In this document: piece by piece, positions 12,154 to 31,800 of the stretch
Layout of the letters: each line of letters starts with the position of its first letter
Position numbering within the stretch: position 1 is the stretch's first letter
Assembly (NCBI RefSeq): GCF_036785885.1
Contig: NC_092326.1
Location: 41,564,287 to 41,628,286 of the forward strand
Direction: 5' to 3'
DNA from: Coffea arabica
Lineage: Eukaryota; Streptophyta; Magnoliopsida; Gentianales; Rubiaceae
Length of the DNA: 64,000 nucleotides
The notes under the pieces: generated by a model
What the model saw: the letters and a program-made list of their open reading frames with translations, nothing else
Database searches by the model: none
Told to the model about the DNA's origin: nothing
Position numbers and translations under genes: made by a program

Positions 12154-13473
12154 TCAAGGATAAATAGATCTGGGGATGATGACGTTTCCAATGTTGTTGT
12201 GCCATGGATCTGCCAAGTGAGCAGCTAAGTTCTCCAGCGGTCCAGTTCCAGGGTATGCCGACTGTTGAACCGCGAATCCCACGACAGCCAACAAGGCAAG
12301 GCGGCCTAAAGATCCAAAAACAAAATGTGTATCATCAGAATATATGCGATTGGGATTGGGAGAAAGGGAAAAAAAAAAAACAGAAAAGAAAAAATTGATG
12401 AGCAAGCATGAAGGTGTGTTGTTGTTACCATTCTTGACTTCCTTGACTTTGTACTCTGCGAATTTTGCAGGGTCCTTGGAGAAGCCCAACGGGTCAAAGG
12501 CTCCACCAGGGTACTTCTTCTTTTCAGTGTCTTTCTCAATGCTTCTCTGGTGCTCTACAAAAGCAATGGCAAGGAACTCAATGGCCAAGATGGTAGGGAG
12601 GTTGCCCCATGGAACTGGTTGCCCCAAGTAGGTTGCTTGTCCTCCTGGAATGGCTGCCCACTCTTGAGCCTGAACCCAGTTTCCCAGACCCAATGCCTCT
12701 GGTACTAGGACCCCTGGCTGCAATTCATTAAGTGATTGACAGTAATTTTACTTTTCTAATTAATCAAGAACTGGACACCCGGTACTGTACAAAGAGACTA
12801 AATGGGACAACTTTGCCTCGCGGAAAACCAATAAAAAGCAGGAAATTGATCACCTATATGTAAATGTTGCCGATGCTAGAATTTGAGGGATGGAATACAC
12901 TTAAATATGTCAGTGTTAGATACATGGTATATCGCGTGTGAAGTTTAATTCGGGAGTTCCTGCCTGATAATCATTTTCCATGAATGTATGACGGGGATGA
13001 GTTGGTTAGAAGTTTGAATCCCAGAAATAAGAGAATCATGACTCATGCATGATACATACCACAGCAAGCATGGCCCATCGGCAATGGATGAGCTCAGATT
13101 CCTTGTATCTTTCCAAGTTTTCTGGAACTTCACCAAAACGAAGTGGGTCGAAGCCGAAGTCTCTGAACAACACAAAGAGATCGTAATGGTACATCACACG
13201 TCATTAAGCTGCTTAAGAAGCCAAAAAACAAAAAAAAAAAATGTCCAAGCAGTCATCTTTCACTTGTAGTATAATTCATTACCCTGGAGCTGAGCCATCA
13301 AGGTACGGTGGCCGTGGCTCGCCGGGCATCCATTCAGCTGACATGGTGAACCTGCTGCTGGAGGAAGCACTGGTGGGCAGTGCCAGGGAGGTGGCGAACT
13401 TTGACTTGGATGATGAGAGGACTGAAGGGCTAACGGCGGCGATGCCGCAGCTCGTCAATGTATTTGCTGCCAT
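12154..13473 (-). CDS. LHCA1: Chlorophyll a/b-binding protein of photosystem I, Lhca1 type
   Basis: This is a nuclear gene for a PSI light-harvesting antenna protein of the thylakoid membrane, which binds chlorophyll and carotenoid as part of the LHCI belt. Four exons close in frame: 13283-13473, 13060-13162, 12429-12717 and 12154-12305, giving 244 residues, close to the family size of about 240. Residues 1 to about 43 form a Ser/Ala-rich plastid transit peptide (start [10 protein letters not shown]). Mature sequence begins near [16 protein letters not shown]. Helix motifs with chlorophyll-ligand Glu/Arg pairs are visible: [10 protein letters not shown] at about 87-96 and EVKNGRLALL around 190-199. 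The PGGAFDPLG and [21 protein letters not shown] blocks are characteristic of Lhca1 rather than other Lhca proteins. The start is the only ATG giving the transit peptide. No damage is seen. Identity is recalled from the family, not searched. Confidence 0.95.
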
Positions 13474-13595
13474 CTTCTTCAGAACTGGAGAGAATTCTGG
13501 AAAGCAAGAAAAAATGGCAGAAGACAAAAAGATGGTTTGACAAGGAGAAGGGGTGTGACAACAGGGTAGCAGGACTTGGTATAAGGGAGAAAGAA

Positions 13596-13631
13596 GGATA
13601 TAGAGCGAATCCAAATGTTGATCGTTATTGG
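13596..13631 (-). promoter_or_regulatory. Candidate core promoter of LHCA1
   Basis: On the minus strand, CTCTATATCC lies about 120-130 bases upstream of the LHCA1 start codon, with a CCAAT motif (seen as ATTGG on the plus strand) about 25 bases further upstream. Both are loose matches to TATA and CCAAT boxes. The transcription start is unknown. Confidence 0.35.
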
Positions 13632-14902
13632 CTAAGGATACCAGATTGTGTTGTGTTATTGGGCCACGTATAAGTTGTTAATCCATGGGGATATCTTATG
13701 TGGAATATCAAGTGGATAGGTCTTAAAGGTCGAGATCTTATGGTGTTTTCTGTGGTGGGAGCTCTTTCCAGCCTAGAAAGATCGAGGTGGCTGTAAATGT
13801 CACCAAATGAAACTTCCAAGTGGTTAATGTAATCAGTACTGTTTTCAGTAGAAGCATATAAAAACCATCAAAACTCAAACACTATCATCACAGTCAAAAT
13901 AACCATGGCTATGTAATTGAGTGTTTTCAGCAGTGATCACAGCCATTTTCACATTATAGACATATGGCAAAATGTCTCACAGCATATACAGCTCAAGCAA
14001 CTCATCAACATGTCGATTTAACGCAACATACAATTGCAAAAAAGGTGTTTTTAAATCATTCTTCAATCCCAATTATCCCCTAATTCTCTATGATTTCAAC
14101 CCTTAATTTGACTATATTAGGCTCCATTTTGCGAATGAAAAAAAATAAATTATAGATCGAGAGAGATGATACAGTGAGGATGAGCTAACATATTTTGTGG
14201 CTTTCAACAATAATTCTAGGGTATTTTTGACCACTTATATCCATATACAAAGTGGGCAATTTAGTCATTTTATTAGTTTTTTTTTTAAAGCCAATTCACA
14301 AGATTTAGGTATGATTAGTCTCGAGGGGATAAACTATATATTATTTTAGTTTGAAGAGGTAAAGTGGGATTAATCCCATAATTCAAGTAGCAAAGTGCCA
14401 TTCATCCTTTAGAAAAACGTTAGGGATTTCAAAAAAATGTAATTTTTTTTGGAGTTAGTATTGAGAGAGATTGACAACCAAGAATAACTTAGTCAATAAG
14501 ACACCGTAACTTAGTTAGTAAAACGCTTTACTTATAATCGATATGTCGAGTTATCAAGGTGCTAAAATGAAAAATCACTATTGATTCTCTTAGAAAAAAA
14601 AAGAGAAAAGGAATAAAGATGTATTTTCTACCATCTACAATTTGTCACTACAAATTGTTTTAGGTGTATTTAAAAGGGTTAATTTCACATTAGTCCTGTA
14701 TAGTGGTTTAAAGTTTTAATTTGGTCATTTAAAGTTTTAAAATGAATCCATTTAATCCCCTTCAATTGAGAAGTCTGATTTTGATCCTCAAAAGTAGCAA
14801 GAGCTATCAATTTGGTCCATCAAATTAAAAAAAAAAAATCTCAATTTGGTCCTTTAAACAAGAAAGTTGTTCTAATTTTGATCAATTTATCATATTTTGT
14901 TA

Positions 14903-15058
14903 AAGGATTAATCTTTTATATACTGACATTGTACATACAATCACCATTAGATACATGACAACTCACTTGAATTTAAAATTAAAATCCAAATTTTGTTCAT
15001 ATGTCATGCATCCAACTGTGATAATGTATGTATTGTCAGTATATATAAGATTTACTCT
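14903..15058. repeat. MITE of the TATACTGACA family, copy 1
   Basis: The left end AGGATTAATCTTTTATATACTGACA is mirrored by TGTCAGTATATATAAGATTTACT on the right, with a second inner pair around CATGACA/TGTCATGCATCCAA. Copies lie at about 15396-15543, 20548-20688 and 36930-37172. Confidence 0.6.
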
Positions 15059-15395
15059 TTGTTAAATACATTAATATTTTGCTTATTATAAAAGATTTAA
15101 CTTCAAAAAGAGAAAAATAAGCAAAGTTTAGTTGTTCTCCAAGAAACATTCACTCATTAATCTTTTTTTTTTCATGATAAATGGGTGGTCTTTAGCTACT
15201 TATTTTTATTTCAGTATGCAGCAATGTAGTAGTTTCATCCGGACATAAAAGGAGCGTGCTAATTTGGTGAAAAAAGTTACATGTCATTTAAATCACTAAA
15301 GTTGGAAAAAACTTAAAATAGAATGACAGTAAATCTTATTAGTTTTGTTTCTTTACGGTTTAATTCTTTCATAGTTATCAAATCATTAATATGAG

Positions 15396-15543: not shown

Positions 15544-15709
15544 CTTAGTATAATTCAATATATTAGGTTTAAAAGATCAAGTTGGAACATTTTTTGTCTC
15601 AATTTGGCAAACCAATTTGAGATGTTCTAGTTTGAGGGACTAAAATTTTCGAGGAATGAAAATTATCAAATGAGACTTTTCGATGTGAATGCCAAACAGA
15701 ATAAAGATA

Positions 15710-16499
15710 GGGTTAATTATATTTACCTTTCCTGAGGTTTGACCATATTACCAATCAATCTCTGTAATTTGTCCAAATAACGGTCTCACCCTTTGAATGA
15801 TCAAACATTTAACAAAAATCCCCTTAATGACGAAAATGCCCTTATTGAGGCCATGTTATATTAAAAAAAGAACATATTTTTATTTTATTAACTCTGAAGC
15901 AATCCAAAAAAATAGAAAAAGTTTTTACTTATTATTTTATAAAAACCATATATTTGCTTCCATAAATAATTTTGAATCAATACTTATTTTAAATCTTAAA
16001 AATGAATATTAACAATTAGATAAATTGAAAGAAAAATAAAAAAGAAGCAATTATTTTAAATCCTCAAGATGGTTCAAATTTGTGGTTCAAGGCATGTTGT
16101 GGAGAGCACAAGGCATGTTTTCCTCAATTTGAACCATACTCCAGGAATTAAAATAATTTCTTCTTTTTTTTATTTTCTTTCAATTTATCTAATTTTTAAT
16201 ATTTATTTTTAAGATTTAAAATAATTATTGATTCAAAACTATTTATGGAAGCAAAGATATGATTTTTATAAAATAATAAGCAAAAATTTTTTCTTTTTTT
16301 TTGGATTGTTTCAGGATTAATAAAATAAAAATATGTTCTGTTTTTTAATGCAACATAGCCTCAATAAGGGCATTTTCGGCATTAAGGGGGTTTTTGTTAA
16401 ATGTTTGATCATTCAAAGGGCGAGACCGTTATTTGAATAAATTATAGGGACTGATTGGTAATATGGTCAAACCTCAGGGGAGGTAAATGCAATTAACCC
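15710..16499. mobile_element. Palindromic Mutator-like MITE with 9-bp target duplication
   Basis: The element is 790 bp and consists almost entirely of two inverted arms of about 370-380 bp (about 15710-16082 and 16128-16499). They match at roughly nine bases in ten by eye and are separated by a loop of about 45 bases. The ends are GGGTTAATT and AATTAACCC. A perfect 9-bp direct repeat, ATAAAGATA, lies immediately outside both ends (15701-15709 and 16500-16508). A 9-bp target duplication with long terminal inverted repeats is the hallmark of Mutator-like elements. There is no transposase. A transcript would fold into one long duplex. Confidence 0.85.
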
Positions 16500-16837
16500 A
16501 TAAAGATATTGCACTTTAGAGGACCATATTGAAATTTAAAAATTAACCCATTGTGGATCCCTCAATCCAAATCCGGGTAAAGCTATAAAAGGTAATGTAG
16601 AAAAGAGAAATACGTAAAGATGACTAGACTAAAAAGACAAATACATGGGATAGCGACAGTCATCACAGGTAGCTGTAGCTCCCGATACATACAGCTAACT
16701 ACTCTTTACTCTCCAGCGAATGCCTGCTCGCCATTCATTCATTGCCTTCTCATTTCTACTGTCATCTCCTGTCTTGTTACTGCAAATCTGGGTGATTAAA
16801 TCCCCTTTTTTTTCGCTGTGAATTGCGAGGCACTGAA

Positions 16838-19800
16838 ATGGCCTTCGCTTCTGCACTCCAGCCCATATTTTGCTCTGGCAATGATACCGCAAAACCCATC
16901 AAGGACAAGCTAAAAGCTGGTGGTTCTGGTGGAGGAGGTGCTGTTGGAAACGTTGCGGTGGTGGTGAAAAAGGATTTTGAGTTTCTGAGGAAGGGATTTA
17001 GTAAAGGTGTGGAATGGGCTAATACTACTCTTCACCTTCCCAAGATTGCAAAATCAATTGATGACTTCATCTGGCTCCGTCATGTTGAAGACCCACGTGT
17101 TGTTTCTCCACTCAGGACTCCTTCTTGGCCTCAGCCTTATTATCCAGGTCTAGTTTTCTTAATTCCATACTGGTAGAGTGGTAATTGATTAATTCTGTGT
17201 TTTTTGGTTTAGCAATTTTGTTACTTTTGTCAAGTTGAATTTTAGTTATTAAACTTTTTATCTTTTACCAATGATCATCATTAGCAAACTCTTTTTTTTT
17301 TTGTTTAAATTGATGATAATGAGATTGGCTAGGTAATTTATGAGAGCTTTTAATCTACATAAGCAGGTTCAAGTTTTAAGTTGTAACTTATCACAGTTCG
17401 CTCAGTGAAGTATTGAAAAGCATAAGAAATGTTAAATTTGACACTGAACCTTATGGTGTTAAAACTAACAATTAGCAGCATTATGGTTTTGAAGAATGTT
17501 CAGTTTGTTGAATTTTATATTCTAGCAACTGGGTTTTCAATCAAGATTTATCAATTAGAAGCATTACTAAAGGATGAGAATCAGTTTAGTCGTCAAACAT
17601 TTCTTTCTAAGGTATGGGTTTTGCCCTAGAATCAAATGCCACCTGTGTGCTTGGGCTTGTTGAGAAACTCTACATATTTTTTATTTCTATTTAGGTGAGA
17701 GTTGTACATAGGCCATGTTTCAGGATAAAGTTGATTCTTGATGGGGGAAAATTGTCAACGATTGAATGAATTTTTCATTCGACGGGGAGCATTTGAAAGA
17801 AATTAAGAGTCCCACGATTCACTTTTACCTGAAGTTTTTGACAAATAGCACTTCCCAGTTTAGGTCAGCGGACATCATATGGGAATGGAATGGACAGTAA
17901 ACAAGTGGGATATCTAATTTGAAGCAGTGGGAGTACTCAGATGGCGCTTGTGTCCAATCCTGTTTAAGGTGCACTACGTTGTGGCTGCTGCTTGTAACCT
18001 TGCAACAAGCCATCCAAATGATGGAGCAACAGTTTGTAAAACTTTAATCAGCTAGAAGATGGCTAATGCTCAATGTTACAACTAGCAATTGTTGACGTGT
18101 GTTAAGACCTTTGGCTGACTGACTTTAGCTAATGTTAACCTGCCCTTTCATGATAACATTGAAAGGATCGTGTGGTTGATATGCATGTGAAAGTTAATAT
18201 TGCTGAACTTGTTTCTTAGTTAATTGACTTTGGGCATTTGATATATCCCGACAGAGCTTTCTGGAATTGATTTACTTGTTGCTGATCTTCAAGCACTGGA
18301 GGCATATATTCGCTATTTCTACTATCTATCCAAGTTATGGACGAAGCCATTGCCCGAGTCATATGATTCTCAAGAAGTAGCTGACTATTTTAGGTTGAGG
18401 CCTCATGTAGTTGCCCTCCGTCTTCTGGAGGTACTTTACATGTCCTATTGAATTGTTTAGTTTTGATTTTTTGCTCTGTCACAGTTGCAAGTATTCTGAT
18501 TTCAACCTAATTGTTTTGTTGAGGATGCCTGATGTGTCTCAGATTTTGTATTGGTTGCTTCTGACAACCATATGTAGTTGCCATAATAATCTTGAAAAAT
18601 CTTGCATTGGAGCTTAAAATAATTCATTTCTTGAACACTTGAATTGTCTTATTGTCTCCAGTTGGAGGACTCTTGACCTTAACTTTGAGATTACCCTGAA
18701 ATAAGAATGCATGATCTCTTATTGCACTTTCCCATGTTTAAAATGGTGTGTATCTAATATTATACAACCTTTTGAAGGGAGAAGACAAATATATGGGTGC
18801 TCTATCACTTTCATAGTTGAAGCTGTCTAAATGCTGGAAATCAATGAAATGCAAATATTTTGACAACAGTCACTTAAGGACCTTGAATTCTTCAACTTTG
18901 TGAATGTTTCCTTGCAATCTGCTAGCATTTTGAGTTTCGTGATGGATGTTGAATGGTTTATCTTTCAGCATGAGAATCCCTGTTGAAAGATTTTCGAGCT
19001 GATCACTAAGGGTTTCATTATAATTGTACTACAAGCTATTTTGTTGAACTTCTTCCTCATCGCGTTGATATCTTATTTAAGGTGTTTGCTGCCTTTTCTT
19101 CTGCTGCAATAAGAATGCGAATCTCAGGGATCGGTTCTTCCAAAAGCAATGTTGCTGATAAGGATATATCCCAGTACAGTTTTGGAATATTGTTAAAGGA
19201 AACAATGCTAAATTTGGGCCCTACATTTATAAAAAGTAAGCATACCATTTACTCTGAGCCCACAAATTTGTTAATATACGCTTTGTTTTTTCTTTTTGAT
19301 TTATGTGTTGACAACATAACTAAAAGATAAGCAAAGGTCAAAGGGCAACATAATCACAAGTTTATGTGTATAGCTGCTTTCTTTTGTTTACTAGCATTCT
19401 TCTACAGAATCGTAAGTTTTGTAAATTTGTGTAAATAATTTAGTTGAGAGATGCAGAGCTCTTTACTTTATTCATTTGCTTGTTTTGCAGTTGGTCAGTC
19501 CCTGTCCACAAGACCGGATATCATTGGGACTGAGATCTCCAAGGTTTCATGTTATTCTTTAAATTATAGAATCCATTTGTTAGAACCTATTTGAAATTCT
19601 CATATTTGATTTGTGTCTTCGTGTATGATTTGTTCTGAGGGCAGAAGTTTGAATGATATTTATATGAAGCACTCATATAAAACAGGATGCATAGCCTCCA
19701 TGGTGGCAGGCTGTCATTCATTGAGTGTGTTTGGATAGAAGATTATCTAGAAAAATTCTTTGGAATAACACTAGCACTTATTGTGATGTGATGTATGTGA

Positions 19801-22800
19801 GATAAAAAGACAGTTGGAAAAGTAAAAACATAATTGAAAAATGTCAATGTTTTGAAGATTTTATGAGCGTCTGTTTCATGTTTGACTTTTGGGTCGAAAT
19901 CATGATTGCAGGCTTTGTCTGAGCTGCACGAGAATATCCCCTCTTTTCCCAAGGTTGTTGCTTTCAAGATCATTGAAGAAGAACTGGGTTCTCCTGTGGG
20001 AAAATTCTTTAGCTATATTTCAGAGGAACCAATTGCTGCAGCTTCATTTGGTCAGGTAGTTCATTTACTTATGAAAGTGATTGTTTTTAGTACTATCTGG
20101 AAATAGTAATTGGACATAGGCTTTCCTCTATTCTTATTCTTTGTCATTTTGTGTGTTTTTCTCATGTATTGGGTTTGACTTCCATTTTAGGTCTATAGAG
20201 CTAGGACTGTTGATGGTTTTGATGTTGCTGTGAAAGTCCAGCGCCCTAACCTACATCATGTGGTTGTTCGAGATATTTACATTCTTCGCCTCGGGGTTAG
20301 TTTAAATTCTGTTTGTGGAAAATACTTTATGAACTCAAGCAGTTTTGCCTAAATAATTTTTTAGACAATTGTCTCAGCTGGGGCTATTGAAAGAAATAGC
20401 AAAAAGGAAGAGTGACCCCAGGCTTTATGCTGATGAACTGGGAAAAGGCTTAGTTGGGGAGTTAGATTACACCTTGGAGGCTGCCAATGCAGAGAAATTT
20501 ATGGTACAAATTTTCTTCTATGCTTATAAGCATTTTCTCCTTGCAGGATTCTTTTACAATGACTGTATACACTGTCCCAGTTGGATGCATGACACGTGCA
20601 AAATTTGGGTTTCAAATTTAAATTTAGATTATGTGTTATGCATCCAATGGTGAAAGTGTATATACTGTTAGTGTATAGAAGATTAATTCAAAGAAAAAAA
20701 AAAGGAAGCTTAGACTTAGTTGATGGCTATTTAGTCAGCTGAAGTGTTTGGAATTTTCTCTGCACATTAGGCAATGCTTTAATTACTGTAATTGGCTAAC
20801 AAATGATTTTCGCTTAAATCATTTTATGACCTTTTATCAACATATTGAAATTTGAAAATCTCCAAATTTGCTGCCACCATATTGTTCCAGAAACAGACTT
20901 GTGGCTGGCAGTCCCTTTTTACTTGTGAATGTCAAACTGACGGTGCAGGGATCATGATGAGATTAGCCTGGAAGTTGGCAGGTAGTATACTGCTGTTGCC
21001 AGACATCACTTCCTCTTTTGTGCTGTGGCACAATTATCCCTTCCTTCATCTCTATATATTTGTTTGGAACCAAGTAAACTTCTGTGAATCAGTCTTCATA
21101 TTTTATCACTTCTTTTGGATACTCCTTTAAATATCATGATGGGTTGTGGAATTATGCAAAATTTGTTGAATAGAGTGGCCATTGCTCTCGTTGAATAGAG
21201 TGGCCATTACAGTTCGAACTTAGCCTGACATCTAAATCTTGTCAAAAGAAAGTAAAAAGAGATAATGTCTGCCTCATGCTGGCAAAATAGTGTTGTATGA
21301 AACAAATTGACATACTTGAAGAAAGAAAAATCATGTGTTTTTCTTGTTTCTTTGTGTGATGAGTCATTTGAAGAATCTGCTTTTTACCTACCAAAGGTTC
21401 AAAATCTTACAATCTAATTCCTTCTTGGTTACTGCAGGAAGCACATTCTCGGTATCCTTTTATATGTGTTCCAAAAATTTTCCGACATCTTAGCCGGAAA
21501 AAGATTCTGACCATGGAATGGATGGTTGGTGATAATCCACGCGATTTACTTTTCCTCTCTACCGAATCACTTGACCAGCACCCTGGATTAACAGAGAGGC
21601 GGCAAAATGAAGCAAAAAGACGTCTTCTTGACTTGGTATGCAATCTGCATTCTGGCTTGTATGCGTCAATGGATTATGAGTTATGTATTTGGCAGTCCAC
21701 AAATTAATCATTCATTCTCAAAGCTGCTTGATCTTACACAACATAGCAAGAATAAAACTTACGTGTGTATACTAGAATTTATATATATCTGCTAGAGAAT
21801 TAGGTATTGTAGAGGTAATCCAACCTTTTGCTGTTGAGCTTGTGATGACCTGTAATGGGAGAAAGGCGCAAACACTGTCGCTTTCTTGTGTTGGCCATAT
21901 GCACTATTGTTAATGAAATATCTTGTTCTTAATACTGTGTTTATCATAGATTTTTGTGCTTTACCTATTTTAGGTTAATAAAGGAGTGGAAGCATCACTA
22001 ATTCAACTCCTTGAGACTGGGTTATTGCATGCTGACCCCCACCCGGGCAACTTGCGCTACACATCATCTGGGCAAATTGGGTATGATTAATTGGCTATCT
22101 TGTTACTTAATTGAAGGAAGATCTGATTTACATATGGTTCTTCTTTGCTTCTGTTTTATGTTAGGTTTCTTGATTTTGGGTTGCTTTGCCAGATGGAAAA
22201 GAAACATCAATTTGCCATGCTTGCATCCATAGTGCATATAGTTTATGGAGATTGGGCATCTCTTGTGCAGGCACTAATTCAAATGGATGTTGTACGGCCA
22301 GGAACTAATGTTCTGCGTGTTACCATGGTAATATATGGTGTACAATAAGCAATAGCTGATCCATTTATTTTCTCTTATTCATGCTTTACATGAAATCCTT
22401 TAAATCATTTTCCAATGAATTGGGCTTTATTTTCATCTTGTCCTTTTCTGCTTATTGCTCAAGTAATTTTCGTATGTGGATCTACTTTTTTGGTGGAAAA
22501 ATGATTCAGGACTTGGAAGATGCCTTGGGAGAGGTAGAACTTAACCGTGGAATCCCCAACGTCAAGTTTAGTCGGGTGAGAACTGTAATATGGTGACTTA
22601 TTCTTGGGGTGACCAAAATTTGACAAAAGATTTCTGAACATGTTGAGTTTGTAACAGCACACTCTCAGTTTCTTTTGCAAACATATCCTTAGGAAGGATG
22701 AAGCTCTATCACTCTCTCTTACCCCTTTGAAACTTTATTTTTAGAATATAATAGACATTTGAAAAATGGAATCTAAATCTTGGTTGTTCTCTTCCATTTC

Positions 22801-25800
22801 TTCCATAACTGGTTGCTGACATTGACATTTGTGATCTAGGTTCTTGGTAAAATATGGTCTGTGGCACTGAAGTATCATTTTCGCATGCCACCATACTACA
22901 CTCTGCTTCTGCGGTCTTTGGCTTCACTGGAAGGTAGACTACCATGTCATGTTTCTTTCGTCAACCCTTTGACTTTAGCAATGTCAACTTTACGGAATTC
23001 TGCTAACTTTTCCTTTAAAAACAATGACCTGTTGGAAAGCTTAATCTGAGGCTATTATGTAGAGTAATGTGCATGGTGTTTTATTATCCATCTGTCTCTT
23101 TATCTGTTTTTATTATTGCCCCTTTCACACATTCTCAATACAGCTTCACTTTTCAAAAAACTAGGACTAAGGGCCCTGCTTAACCAGTGCCACAAGGTTA
23201 CTCATCAGACAAATTCTATCTGGAAATACCTGGTATAAAATTTTTGTTGGCCAAAATGTCGAAAAGGTTGGTACTATATTTTCTGGTAGATTGCCCATGG
23301 TATTGTAACACAGAACCAGAGTTATGTATCAAGTGGTTGGTTCTTTTCCTTATGGCCTTCATTTTTTGGGGTTGTGGAGTGTATTCAAAAAATGGATACT
23401 AGATAAGTGTCAGGAAGTCTCTGTCTAGGCACACATGACCTGGTTTGATTTGCTAGTAAATGAAATGACTGCTAGTGGTAGAATTGTCGATAAAGCATAG
23501 TTGGCCTCAAATGAACACATCCTTCTTTTTGTTTGCTGGATTTTAGATTCTTAAGTGCAAAGAAGTATTTCGATAGGATTGTTTTTCTATCTTTCTTTGC
23601 ATATATACTTGTTATGGTTGTGATTTCAATTCTCATGTTTGTCATCCATAAACTGGAACTGCATTTGACAGCTTTCTACAAGCTGCTAATACTATATTAT
23701 GAAAATTGCCTCTTTTTGAAACATGTATTTACCTTCCTTTTGGTCATATATTGCAGGATTGGCAGTTGCTGCAGATCCAAATTTTAAAACATTTGAGGCT
23801 GCATATCCCTATGTTGTCCGTAAACTTCTCACTGATAATTCAGCTTCCTCGGGGAGAATTCTGCACTCGGTACATATATAAATTATAACACTGCCATCAT
23901 TGTACTGGGTTTTCTGGTTGCACAAAATTGTCTTTCAAATATCTGCAGCTTATATTTATCATGTTTAAGCCCATTATCTGAGAGTTAGTTGTCGTGGAAA
24001 GTGAATTAAGGGGATGTCTTTGCTACTTGTGAATTCAGAGTGGGGGTTAAATGTACTTGCTACCTGCACTTCTTTTGTTATATAGATCTTCTAGTTAATT
24101 TGAACTGCAGCAAGTTTCCTTTAAATAAAACTTCCATTCTATCCTGCTTTATATCTTAGAGTTGGAAACTTCACTTATCGATGCACAATCATCCTCTGGA
24201 ACCACTAGAAATTAGTGATATGTGACTGTAACTTTATCTGATGAACAGCCTGAAAAACGCACAGAGATCCCTGAAAACCTGGTTTTGCTACATCCTTGAC
24301 CCTCGAACTTTCAGCTCTTTCGTAGCCCATGATATACCTATTCGGTCATGTAAACTAAGAAAAATGGAGAGAAAAAATACTTTTCTTCTATTTCACTTTG
24401 GACTACACAATATACAAATATATATATACACAAGTGGATACTATAATCATATGATACTATAATCATACTATTACCTAATTAATATATGATACTATAATCA
24501 TATGATACCTAATTAATATATAATACTATAATCAAATCTTTCCTAATATTTATATTATCAAATCTTTCCATAATATCAGATCACATATCTTCAACACTCC
24601 CCCTCAAGCTGGTGAATATAGATCTTCCATTCCCAGCTTGACAACACTTTCATGAAACATGTTGCTACACAGTCCCTTTGTCATCACATCTGCAAGTTGA
24701 AGTCCTGTCGGAACATATGGAGTACAAATCAGTCCACTTTCTAGCTTATCTTTAATAAAGTGCCTGTCTATCTCTATGTGCTTCGTCCGATCATGTTGCA
24801 CTGGGTTGTGAGCTATACTTATAGCAGATTTGTTATCACAGTATAGCTTCATCGGTTTGCTCCATTGAATCCTCAAGTCTTCTAGGATAATTTTAACCCA
24901 CAATAATTCACATACCCCTGCTGCCATAGCCCTGAACTCTGCTTCAGCACTTGACCTTGCTACCACACTTTGTTTCTTGCTTCTCCAGGATATTAAGTTT
25001 CCTCCAAGAAATGTACAATATCCTGAAGTTGATCGCCTGTCAACTGGAGACCCTGCAAAGTCTGCATCTGTGTAAACTGCCAGATCAATTTCAGGACCCT
25101 TTTTGAATAAAATTTCCTTCCCTGGATGTGCCTTTAAGTAATGAAGCACTCGATAAACTGCTTGTAGATGAACTGCTCTAGGATCATGCATAAATTGACT
25201 AATAACACTGACTGAGTAAGCTATATCTGGCCTAGTATGTGCGAGATAAATGAGTTTCCCAACAAGTCTTTGGTACATCTCTCTGTCCACAGCTGTATCT
25301 CCATGAGTCTCACTTAATTTGTGATTCTGCTCAATGGGAGTTCCAACTGGTTTGCTTGCTGTCATGCCTGTTTCCTTGAGCAGGTCCATAACATACTTCT
25401 GTTGAGAAATAAAAATTCCCTGCCTTGATCGAGCCACTTCAATTCCCAGAAAATATTTCAATTTTCCTAAATCCTTTATTTCAAATTCCTTGGCTAGGCA
25501 CCACTTCAAAGTTTTCTTCTCTACTTCATCGTTTCCTGTCACTATAATGTCATCTACGTATACAATCAAAACAGTAACTCCCCCCAAGGCTGAATGCTTG
25601 ATGAACAGGGTATGATCTCCTTGACTTTGCTTGTAACCATTAGCTATCATTACCTTGGCAAATCGTCCAAACCAAGCACGTGGGGATTGTTTCAGCCCAT
25701 ATAATGCCTTTTTTAACCGACAAACCTTGTTCTTGTCAACCCCACTGAATCCCGGTGGAATGCTTATATAAATCTCCTCTTCTAACTCTCCATGAAGAAA

Positions 25801-28800
25801 AGCATTCTTCACATCGTATTGCTGTAATTCCCAATCAAAATTAACAGCCAAGGATAGCAGAATTCTCACTGTATTCATCTTTGCTACTGGAGCAAATGTT
25901 TCCCGATAATCTACTCCATATGTCTGTGTGTATCCTTTCGCGACTAACCTTGCCTTGTAGCGTTCTAGGGACCCATCTGCTTTAAACTTTACTGCATATA
26001 CCCATTTACAGCCCACTACTTTCTTGTTCTTTGGTAAATCAACTAATTCCCAGGTCCCATTCTTCTCTAATGCATCCATTTCTACTTCCATAGCAAGTCT
26101 CCATTCTTTCTTTGATAATGTTTCAGACAATGAGCTAGGAATAGAGACTGCATTTAAGGTGGAAAGGAAGCTTTGATGGCTCGGGGAAAACTTCTCAAAA
26201 GACACAAAGTGAGACAATGGATATAGGGGTCTTTTGGTGCATTCTCGGGGTTTTTTCCTTACAGCAATAGGTAGATGTAGGTCCTGGTCAAGGCTAAGAG
26301 GCTCAGGACAAGGTGATTTAGAGCTGGAAGAATGGTCGGTCGGTGGTGTAGAATTCAAATTTGATTCACTCATTGTTACCTCATTCCCGGAGCTTGGTTT
26401 AGAGGATTGTTCTTGCCTTGTAACCACGATGGGATCTCCTTTTCTTGTATACACTTGGTCAAACCGGAACCAGTCATAGATTTTACGGTCTTCCTTTTTT
26501 TCATCTACCACATCAGATTGAAGAATTGACTCTTGGAATTCAAATTTGGATGACTCAGATGTGGTCAACTCTAAGGAGGGAAATTTTAACTCCTTATCTT
26601 CAAGTGTATCTAACTCCCCCTGAAAATAAGGAGTGATAAAATAGGGCTTATTTTCAACAAATGTAACATCTGCCGAGACATAGAGTTTTCTAGTAGGTGG
26701 ATGATAACATTTGTAACCCTTTTGAGTAGATGAGTACCCCACGAAGACACACTTAAGAGCACGAGGATCTAACTTCTCACGGTTATGACTATGGACATGA
26801 ACAAAGGAAGTACATCCAAAAACTCGAGGAGTGAGATTAAAGGAAGATCGAATATCGGGGTAAAATTTGGATAGGTTCTCTAGTGGACTTTGAAACCCCA
26901 AAACCTTGGAAGGAATTCTATTTATGACATAAGCTGATGTGAGTACAGCTTCTCCCCAATATGCTTTTGGCACACTTTGTTCAAACAGTAAGGCTCTAGT
27001 GCACTCAAGAAGATGTCGGTTTTTCCGTTCTGCCACTCCATTTTGTTGTGGAGTGGCAATACAGGATGATTCATGTATGATTCCTTCTTTTTGGAAAAAC
27101 TGACTCAAGGTTTGATTGAAATAATCACGAGCATTATCTGAACGAAAGTGTTTTATCTTGGTGCCAAATTGATTTTGAATCATTGCATGAAAAACAGGGA
27201 AAATATAACTCAAATCAGACTTATTTTTGAGTAAATAGATCCAAGAGACTCTTGTGCAGTCATCGATAAATGTGACAAACCACTTAGACCCTGAGATGTT
27301 TGGAATAGTTGATGGCCCCCAAATATCATTATGGATTAAAAAGAAAGGAGAAGACGATCGTTTATTACTGATAGGAAATGGGACACGAGTGTGTTTAGCA
27401 TACTCGCAGATATCACAATGAAAAGACTGAACATCAAATCCCTTGAACAAGGAAGGAAACATTATTTTTAATGCAGAAAAAGACACATGACCTAGACGTC
27501 TATGATGTAACCAGATGACATCTTTATTGGAGGGTGAAGACAATGTGGACAGGGCAGATTTACTAAATTCTGGTTGACTTGATGTATCCAAGTAATAGAG
27601 TCCATCATGCTCCTTAGCTAGTCCAATCCTCTTCCCCGAGCCCCGGTCCTGAAAGTCACAACAGGATTCATCAGGATTCATCAAATATAACAAAGCCAGC
27701 TAGATCCTTGGCAAGTTTTTTTACAGAAACCAAATTTGTAGATAATCGAGGAACATGAAGAACATTTTTAAGAATCAAATTTGGAGTAACTTGGACATCT
27801 CCGATACCTGCCACAGTGGTTGTAGTACCATCTGCAACAACAATCTTTCTATTGCTAGGACATGGATTATAGGTTTTGAATTTATTTGAAGTATGAGTCA
27901 TATGGTCCGTAGCACCAGAGTCAAGAATCCAGACATTCCTAAGCTCATTGCCTAAAACACTAAATGTAAAAGAGACTAGAGCCTTACCTGAAAGAGTCAA
28001 TGAACACATACCCGGATTCCTTGATTGAGAATTGTTAGTTGCTGGTTTGTCAACTGTCTCTAACATACTTTTAAGCTTCTCAATTTCCTCCATACTAAAC
28101 CCTCCAATCACTTGAGTTGGATCTTGAACCGACATATGAGCCTGCCTTTGCTGGCCACCTTTTTGTCCCCATTCACGAGTGGGTGGTTTCCCATGTAGTT
28201 TCCAGCATTGATCTATGGTGTGTCGTGGTTTCTTGCAGTATGTGCACCACAACTCCTCGCGATTCTTTTGCCCACTTGTTTGATTGGTCTTGTCCGCAGC
28301 AACCTTGTTCAGTACCAACCGCTGAGATTTGGAACTTAAAAGGGCTGAATTTTCTATTGAAGGTAGCTCTAACATAATACCCCTGCGACTTTCTTCTCCA
28401 CGTACTTGGGATATTGCTTCTGTTAAAGAAGGAAACTCTGGCCTGCCCAGAATTTGAATTCGTATAAGATCGAATTTAGAGTTTAGGCCAGCCAAAAAAT
28501 CATAAACTCGATCCCTTTCTATGAACTTCTTGATAAACACTGCACATTTGCTACAGTTCAAATCAAGTGCCCTGTAATAATCCAGTTCCTGCCACTGGTT
28601 TTGCAGAAAATTGGCATACTCCGTCACTGTTTTTGTCCCTTGTTTTGCTCCAGTTGTCTTTGTCTTGATGTCATAGATAAGAGCTGCATCATTAACCTTG
28701 GAATATGTCTGATGAAGGGCATCCCAAATTGCCTTTGCTGTAGGAAGAAACATACATGTATCGCTGATTTCAGGAATCATGGAATTCCATAACCAAGACA

Positions 28801-31800
28801 TGATCATTGAATCCTCTTGTTCCCATGCTTCAAACCCCGCCGTTTCACTATCCGGTGCTATTTCCAATAGATGACTCAACTTTCCTTTTCCTTTCAGGAA
28901 TGTTCGAACCAATTGAGACCACTTCAAATAATTTTTTCCATTTAGTCTATATGCTGCCTGGATGTTTTGAAGCTCTGTTGTGTTCCGTGTACTTTGTTCT
29001 TCTTCCATAGTTGAAGACAATTGCCGCGTTGAGGATGTAGCATCCGCCATGATTGAATAGGAGGGGGGGAAAAAATGTATAGTAACAGGAACAGCAATGA
29101 AGGCTGGAGAGAATAAGAAAGGAACCAGCAATTAAGGCTGGAATTGACAAGAAGCAAAGGTGGTATTTTTCCCAGAACCCTAGAGGGGCTCTGATACCAT
29201 GTAAACTAAGAAAAATGGAGAGAAAAAATACTTTTCTTCTATTTCACTTTGGACTACACAATATACAAATATATATATATACACAAGTGGATACTATAAT
29301 CATATGATACTATAATCATACTATTACCTAATTAATATATGATACTATAATCATATGATACCTAATTAATATATGATACTATAATCAAATCTTTCCTAAT
29401 ATTTATATTATCAAATCTTTCCATAATATCAGATCACATATCTTCAACAGGTCAAATGTTCCCTTGTCTGCATTTAGGACTAACCTAGATCAAGATATAA
29501 AGTTAATTTCTGCAGTTGAACTTCACAAGTCATATTACTCAGTTTACTCTAATTTTGGGCCTATACTTGTTTCATTAAAATCAGCTGAAGTGATTGTGTG
29601 TGTGTTTTTGTAAATCTAAAAGCTATATCCATTCAATTGTTTCATTGTGTATGTTAGGTAGTAATCTTCCACCCTCCCTCCTTCTCGGATTTTATGTGAA
29701 CTACCAGCTGGACATCAAGATACTACTACTAATTTTGGTAGATCTGTCTTGATTTTTTTTTTTTAATTTTGTGTCCCTTGATAGGTTGTGTTCAACAGAA
29801 AAAAGGAATTTCAATGGAAAAAGCTTGCTCTTTTCTTAAGAGTTGGAGCTGCAAGGTATACTGACTAGTGTCTTTCTTTGATTCATTAACAGTGGAGCAA
29901 ACTTTCTCTATATGGTTCAAGCTTCTATTATTTAAATCTGCACATTTTGCATGATACATTCTCTGACTTTGCTTTTTGGCCTCTTGGTCTCTCCAGTTTT
30001 TCTTCTTACATATTGCTGATTCATAAGCCATTCTTATCAAATGCAATATTTCAATTCAAAATTTTTTTTTTGAAATGTGCTTCTCTGTCATGTTTTCAAA
30101 GATTCAACAAAAATATCTCTCTCTTATTGGCTATTAGTATAGATAGAAGACATTGCAGTAATTGCTTTTGCTTACTATGATACACAAGAGACCCGTCTTG
30201 TTTATGAAATTTTATTGATTCACTAGTCAATTTTGTAAAGTTCTCTTTAATATTACGACTCCTATCCTCTCTAAAGTGTTTAGAAGGTTCATCTGGAACT
30301 ACAATTAGTCTTTTGTGCTGAATTAGCATTAGAGTGTTTATGTCAGAATATATGAAATCTGATAAGCTTGAACGAGGACACCATATTTTATTAACAAATG
30401 GTCATGTTTTTATAATTATGATGAACCTTAAGGAAGGTAGCTGTCAGTTGTCCAAACAACTAATATTACCCAACTCAGGAAACTTCCAATTGACAGATGG
30501 TAAGCATTAGCCCAGTCCTTTCTGATCATGACATCTGTTTCCATTCTCATCTGTCATTCTGGTGCAACGCATTGGGTTTGAAGTACCCATCAACCCAAAA
30601 TTAATCAGTTATCTAGCAGAGAGATTTTGATTCCTGAAGAACCACTCTACAGCAGTCCTTTTCTGCCTCCAAGTCCTGAGATTGAAAAGGACACGGTTCC
30701 AAAATTGGCGGTCTGATAATTGACTTTTAGGTCTTTGCCTTCTTTGATATTTATGGGGATGTCTTATCTATATGTTATTGCCTTCTTTTCATCACTTTTT
30801 TGGTGGATTTGAAATCAAGTTTCTTGCCTCTGTCCAGAAAAGGATTGCATCTGGTGGCGGCATCAAAGTCTGAAACATCTTGTGACCCTTCTTCAATTGG
30901 AGTCTCTGGTGAACTTGATGTAGCAAACCTGATTTTGAGACTCTTACCTTCAAAGGATGGCTATGTGCTTAGAAGACTCCTAATGACTGCAGTAAGTATT
31001 GTTCAGCTTCAAGCTGCTTCTTCATAAATATCTCCTCAATGTTTGCATTGTCATTGGCTGGTTAAATATGACTCTTATCTTCATGGTAATCTCGTGAAGG
31101 CAATTAAAGATGCGTTAAGTCGGGTAGAAGGATGAGCATAATCCATTTCCATTGTAGTTCTTGATTTTTTATCTCATTTTGGTTTACACCAATTTATTCT
31201 GTTCAAACTTCTATAATTCTTGAACTAATCAAATGATATGAAAATCAGCTATTTTTCCAGCTAAGTTCAAGTTTGTTAGTTTGAAACATATTTGTTACTT
31301 GGGATAGAGTGAAAGGAGTGCAGTAACTTGTTTGAGGTAGAAGATTCTGACTCGTTGGTTTTCTTTGGTCAACCAACTGTAATTGTTGAATCAAAAGGTG
31401 TTTGCTGTAATAAAAATAAACGCACGAAACTCTCTTGAACAACATTGCTGACTGTCGAACAATTTGATGGCAGATGCAAGTATGAAGTTTTAACTTGGGT
31501 TTGTTACTGGGGAATAATAGTTGTCATATTCTGAGCTAGCCTTCCCTTTTGTGTGACCTTGTCGTTTATGCCATCTGACCTTTAACTTGAGCATGATTCT
31601 GCATTTCAACACACAGAATGGAACTTCATTAGTCAGAGCTATGGTGTCAAAGGAGGCAAATTCCATGCGTCAGCAATTTTGTAGAGTCATCGCAGATATA
31701 CTTTATCAGTGGATAAGCAGGGTTTTAGGGAATGGTGTTCAGGTTGTACAATTTAGTCCCCAAGTGCAGTTGGGTAGAGGCGCTAGCAACATTGAGATAG

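Follow-up and report, generated by a model that had tools for sequence, protein, structure and literature searches.

The window analysed here, a stretch of 64,000 nucleotides of Coffea arabica DNA (contig C17, 41564287-41628286), contains a near-pure palindrome of 790 bp at positions 15710-16499, which is flanked by an exact 9-bp direct repeat (Table 1); the bounds originally predicted, 15701-16508, hold to the base. Upstream, on the minus strand, lies a chlorophyll a/b-binding gene, identified by a PF00504 match on ORF 12154-12747; ORF 13279-13677, taken as the start of this gene, returned no Pfam match. Downstream, on the plus strand, ORF 20191-20352 matches the Pfam ABC1 family (PF03109) above the cut-off (E = 1.1e-8), and ORF 20357-20653 falls below it (E = 4.4e-4; 19.9 versus 22.9 bits). 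The ATG at 16838, which is 329 bases past the second repeat, opens an ORF without a Pfam match of its own that probably represents exon 1 of this kinase gene. The original prediction of a position about 330 bp upstream of the kinase start thus agrees with a likely start codon. As the chlorophyll a/b-binding gene reads on the minus strand upstream and the kinase gene on the plus strand downstream, the palindrome is located between two divergent genes.

Table 1. Features of the palindrome and of the adjoining kinase gene (window positions).
Feature	Position	Strand	Basis
Left target-site duplication, ATAAAGATA	15701-15709	+	Exact match to 16500-16508
Left palindrome arm, terminus GGGTTAATTATATTTACC	15710-16080	+	Inverted-repeat search, arm alignment, family alignment
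Loop, 45 bases	16081-16125	.	Innermost perfect 12-mer, 16069-16080 pairing with 16126-16137
Right palindrome arm, terminus GGTAAATGCAATTAACCC	16126-16499	-	Inverted-repeat search, arm and family alignments
Right target-site duplication, ATAAAGATA	16500-16508	+	Exact match to 15701-15709
Likely first exon, putative ABC1-type kinase gene	16838-17147	+	ORF 16796-17176; 3' end set by eye

Two further repeats were observed in the window. An apparently complete, young LTR retrotransposon, of Copia type as judged by eye, occupies 24347-29449 on the minus strand; across 252 aligned columns, its two terminal repeats are distinguished by a single base change and a 2-base indel, and its long ORFs span 24604-27699 and 27671-29131. 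A second, far more abundant short repeat lies at about 14901-15060. It has matches on both strands and is therefore roughly palindromic, and the left-flank query that includes it produced 3,266 first-look candidates in total.

The arms of the palindrome measure 371 (left) and 374 bases (right), close to the predicted 375 bp, and the loop has the predicted size. Together the arms account for 745 of the 790 bp, so that almost nothing lies outside them, as is typical of a foldback element. An inverted-repeat search returned two gap-free blocks that are 88% and 91% complementary, and the arm alignment gave 90.9% identity over the aligned part. When folded as RNA, the palindrome forms a single hairpin of -466.9 kcal/mol, compared with a mean of -144.3 kcal/mol (s.d. 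8.3) for 20 shuffled sequences; the resulting z-score of -38.8 excludes a chance origin. The predicted hairpin agrees with the expectation of a long duplex, but "near-perfect" is somewhat too strong a word for it, since the arms of the window copy are the least alike among 26 full-length copies (mean 95.7%). The ORF list holds no frame of 120 or more amino acids inside the element. Short, non-coding, present in many copies and bounded by inverted ends, the element has the properties of a miniature inverted-repeat transposable element (MITE), and its length of 790 bp lies at the upper end of the MITE size range. The arms of the Drosophila FB foldback elements are built of short direct repeats.

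To what extent the insertion is shared can be judged from a homologous site on contig C18. The right flank of the palindrome (16500-17400) has two matches in the genome, namely itself and C18:38579946-38580844 (98%), which begins at window position 16502. The left flank matches C18:38576694-38577163 at 93%, up to window position 15700. Between the matched flanks, C18 holds 2,782 bases of other DNA (C18:38577164-38579945; L082 and L081). The palindrome is absent at both borders, in the 217 bases read past the left flank and the 1,246 read before the right one, with the middle 1,319 bases unread. In the bases read, the target word occurs once, on the right side, with 7 of its 9 bases. C18 thus lacks the palindrome at both site borders; it carries a different insertion of 2.8 kb there and is not a clean empty site. 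An empty allele that retained most of the palindrome would have spoken against a transposon, and none is seen at these borders. When the two window flanks were joined artificially, their alignment to C18 ran some 15-20 bases past the junction on its left side. Because the true left flank is 2.8 kb distant on C18, we ascribe this overrun to chance or to a C18 insertion whose right end looks like a terminus. That right end, GGAATCCAAACGGACC, is similar to the final bases of the window left flank.

A search of the genome (1.198 Gb, 131 contigs) revealed a dispersed family, listed at no fewer than 83 distinct places, some of which may be alleles or duplicates of one another. One arm as query gave 40 places (window included), the 159-base tip added 24, and a full-length copy with flanks added 19; for each query only the best 40 candidates, of 383, 544 and 1,008, respectively, were scored. 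We read 61 copies, comprising 39 found with the arm query (set A, L009-L047), 21 of the 24 that the tip query added (set B, L060-L080) and the window; the 19 places from the full-length query are unread. Forty-three copies have both arms (27 of 39 in set A, 15 of 21 in set B, and the window), with termini of the GGGTTAATTACATTTACC type at both ends and one damaged end in L012. Internal deletions are present in the two-armed copies L016, L023, L065 and L075. A larger or autonomous relative with the same ends was not found in the 21 of 24 tip-query places, all of which hold the short element or a one-armed copy.

The exact 9-bp duplication proved to be a property of the family, as had been proposed. 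It is present in 39 of the 43 two-armed copies (23 of 27 in set A, 15 of 15 in set B, and the window), and the 38 distinct words are 91.8% AT, versus 64% AT for the window. The four exceptions are L012, with its damaged end, L034, with two mismatches in a T-rich word, L041, with a single mismatch, and L043 (1283-2075), which has both ends intact and six mismatches between its flanking 9-mers; L043 is perhaps a recombinant between two copies. A target-site duplication of 9 bp, within the range of 8-10 bp, and terminal inverted repeats common to the family are both features of Mutator-like elements (MULEs), which are mobilised by the mudrA-type transposase of a partner with matching ends. The predicted identity of the palindrome as a transposon is thus supported by the number of places, the common ends and the variety of duplicated words.

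Consensus sequences of the left and right arms were derived from the 26 full-length copies, of which the window copy is one. They share 99.2% identity, with all differences confined to roughly the 40 innermost columns, which indicates that the family began with an almost perfect palindrome. The arms of the window copy, one of the more diverged, are 95.6 and 96.2% identical to these consensuses, and most copies reach 97-99%. Between copies, arm identity is 96.5% for left-left, 96.4% for right-right and 95.6% for left-right comparisons; the mean within copies, given above, shows no sign of gene conversion between the arms of a copy. L020 (C14) and L026 (C13) represent a single insertion event whose surroundings, with flank pieces 94-98% identical, are duplicated or allelic, and L014 (C6) and L015 (C5) are identical across 3,497 bases. 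For L024, the best 40 of 1,008 candidates contained no further match to its flanks. The correspondences C5/C6, C13/C14 and C17/C18 may indicate that the chromosomes come in pairs, as haplotypes or homeologues. Four tip matches were also seen within 20 kb of C13 (13484106, 13491736, 13496821 and 13504453; spacings 7,630, 5,085 and 7,632) and may reflect segmental duplication in tandem; the last one, the only one of the four that was read, is the one-armed copy L064.

Only one arm remains in 18 of the 61 copies, 17 of which are independent; 12 of the 18 belong to set A (39 copies) and 6 to set B (21 copies). This share varies with the query, as the best 40 candidates of the full-length query are full-length copies only. 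These copies consist of one tip with its flank, a whole arm and mostly part or all of the loop, followed by unrelated DNA; L070, which kept 177 bases, is the exception. In a frame of 792 positions with its centre at 396, the independent breaks lie at 370, 394, 396, 409, 412, 417, 418, 420, 421, 422, 422, 433, 459, 469, 492, 494 and 615. Sixteen of the 17 therefore fall within 370-494, at or near the hairpin centre, where they are spread over about 125 bp and share no single point. Most one-armed copies stop in the zone that corresponds to the loop of the window copy or just past it.

As a whole arm was required for selection into set A, its breaks could fall anywhere beyond position 371; all 11 independent one-armed copies in it kept 394-492 bases (P = 2.5e-6 for 371-494 under a uniform null). 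Set B was chosen by the outer 159 bases only, and five of its six one-armed copies kept 371-494 bases (P = 0.0017, same null). For both sets the interval was picked after the data were seen. A test that requires no interval gave a median distance from the centre of 25.5, versus 166 expected (P = 5e-5, 20,000 simulations). These statistics are to be read as those of 17 events, in copies picked by similarity to the window, against a simple uniform null.

None of the one-armed copies showed a far terminus with a matching duplication in the roughly 870 bases from the tip; at the single loose terminus match, in L035, the 9-mers disagree at 8 of 9 positions. Except between the duplicates L014 and L015, no downstream DNA common to the one-armed copies was detected in the 3.5-kb loci, and inspection by eye found no duplication words common to one-armed copies of opposite orientation, as reciprocal halves would have. 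L019 carries the inner 31-36 bases of its lost arm, inverted, directly after the break, as a strand switch at the hairpin would leave them. We also considered a nested insertion at the centre of an otherwise intact copy. No second arm was present in the next 9.1-9.2 kb of the 12 one-armed set A copies (11 independent), a reach that insertions longer than this would escape; a loose search yielded only short or weak matches of 61-83% identity in AT-rich DNA, and terminus-like words with four mismatches in three of the post-break stretches.

We interpret the window palindrome as a non-autonomous foldback MITE of Mutator type whose copies lose an arm by breakage at the hairpin centre, a reading to which we assign a probability of roughly 0.9. 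Its first part is based on direct observations: the family with its ends and 9-bp duplications, the near-identical arm consensuses and the C18 borders without the palindrome. The transposase acting in trans, and its Mutator type, we infer. A founder whose halves were near reverse complements would have been multiplied by this transposase acting on the identical ends, with insertion into AT-rich DNA and duplication of 9 bp of the target. The inserted copies then decay by C-to-T change, and about 3 in 10 of those read have lost one arm, nearly always through a break at or near the hairpin centre. An extruded hairpin, or one formed during replication, may be cut near its tip and the end joined to other DNA. 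Breakage at the centre is our preferred reading because 25% of the copies of the Medicago MuTAnT element lack much of one or both terminal inverted repeats and human palindromic repeats break at their centre. Whether palindromic MITEs act as dispersed chromosome break points in this plant, with cleavage of a hairpin or cruciform near the loop producing double-strand breaks of which the one-armed copies are the scars, each joined to unrelated DNA, we regard as an even bet.

One-armed copies might instead arise by abortive gap repair, in which synthesis after excision would copy the first arm, stall or switch template at the centre, and leave an end that is joined to the flanking DNA. This route suits cut-and-paste elements, equally predicts one full arm that stops near the centre (16 of 17), and could account for the inverted piece in L019 by template switching. 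It also predicts that the original right flank, often with a second duplication, directly follows the break, and here the data are less favourable: the exact left 9-mer is absent within 400 bp past the break in all 12 one-armed copies of set A, to which this check was confined (11 independent). Matches with one mismatch occur in six of the 12, at least 53 bp past the break, and resection could hide a second duplication. We consider abortive gap repair an unlikely source of the one-armed copies.

The mutation spectrum bears on a further proposal, an active regulatory role for the hairpin. It was counted against the consensus in the arms of 42 two-armed copies, among them the window copy, after removal of the duplicates L026 and L015, with poorly aligned neighbourhoods masked and C-to-T changes counted on both strands. 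C-to-T changes affect 318 of 6,794 CHH sites (4.7%), 56 of 739 CHG sites (7.6%) and 21 of 411 CG sites (5.1%), versus 75 transitions at 22,205 A/T sites (0.34%), an excess that fits long-standing cytosine methylation in all contexts. In the pair L020/L026, the flank shows 16 transitions and 15 transversions and the element 6 and 1, few events in either case. Read-through of the window copy from nearby promoters would yield a duplex of about 370 bp, a putative substrate for Dicer-like enzymes, and the resulting small RNAs of 21-24 nt might, together with methylation, tune the ABC1 kinase promoter. The predicted fold energy, the 329 bp to the ATG and the CHH excess over A/T-site transitions in two-armed copies are compatible with this, and gene-near inverted repeats have precedents as regulators in sunflower and Arabidopsis, according to the portions of the reports consulted (PMC12595863; PMC4595727). 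An earlier count on 26 copies, made without loop or one-armed controls, had also seemed to favour methylation driven by the hairpin. With these controls, the CHH rate is 4.8% in the loop of two-armed copies (38 of 791) and 4.2% in the arms of one-armed copies (59 of 1,414), which are unable to form the long hairpin. The loop part of one-armed copies gave 7.6% (16 of 211), a value probably inflated by junction bases, because transitions at A/T sites are also elevated in that part (5 of 259, 1.9%). As the rates are similar in arms, loop and one-armed copies, we do not take the excess as evidence for methylation driven by the hairpin or for hairpin small RNAs; it points at most to methylated transposon DNA. 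The C-to-T decay, although heavy, neither proves nor excludes a small-RNA source, and we rate the regulatory role as unlikely; as far as the evidence goes, the window copy sits passively between the light-harvesting and the kinase gene. Finally, although assembly and sequencing often go wrong in long palindromes, a local inverted duplication or an assembly artefact without any transposon is refuted by the family data, with its 83 or more places found by similarity and its 38 different exact duplications, and is left with a negligible probability.

The element fits a known kind, that of non-autonomous Mutator-like foldback MITEs such as Medicago MuTAnT and Arabidopsis FARE. FARE, reportedly the foldback elements of Windsor and Waddell (2000), includes members with large internal parts. 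In the consulted portion of the MuTAnT report, FARE is described as having long palindromic repeats at both ends and as now classed among the MULEs (PMC4486113). The coffee element resembles it in its long palindromic ends and differs in lacking a large internal part, a comparison made by description only. According to the same portion, MuTAnT of Medicago truncatula is a 292-bp element with almost identical fold-back 144-bp terminal inverted repeats and a 9-nt target duplication, is often near genes, has an autonomous form, and lacks a significant part of one or both terminal repeats in 25% of copies (PMC4486113). Fold-back ends, 9-bp duplication, gene proximity and arm-deficient copies are thus common to both. 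Unlike MuTAnT, the coffee element measures 790 bp with arms of about 371 bp, has other termini and lies in general AT-rich DNA rather than (TA)n microsatellites, with no autonomous partner among the copies read; its breaks cluster centrally, whereas break positions are not given in that portion for MuTAnT. The Tm1 Mutator/Foldback family of root-knot nematodes, as far as the excerpt describes it, shares foldback-like terminal inverted repeats, MITE-like members and mostly 9-bp duplications (8-10 bp in 45 of 53 complete elements), but is an animal family with composite, internally repeated ends and a transposase-bearing member (PMC3169594). Central breaks are described, in the part consulted, for the human palindromic AT-rich repeats of recurrent translocations, at which hairpins or cruciforms are thought to form (PMC4255720); unlike the coffee copies, these are particular loci and no transposon family. 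A literature search with the 18-base terminus gave no match. In the portions of the related-element literature consulted we found no description of central breaks in one-armed MITEs, which does not prove its absence from print.

As an element, the palindrome is ordinary, one further family of foldback MITEs of Mutator type. Its situation at this locus offers a comparison within one plant: the copy is on C17 and absent at the C18 site borders, and so its effect on expression or methylation can be tested there, with a control for the different C18 insertion. The first 900 bases of the two kinase genes from the site onward are 98% identical. What is new is an unexpected regularity, the loss of one arm in 18 of 61 copies (17 independent) with 16 of 17 breaks near the hairpin centre. 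The family provides a panel of near-identical palindromes with 370-bp arms at tens of sites, both intact and broken, by which palindrome stability in plants can be measured. If palindromic MITEs act as break points in this plant, it would constitute a natural, many-locus record of how plant palindromes break at their centre and are subsequently joined.
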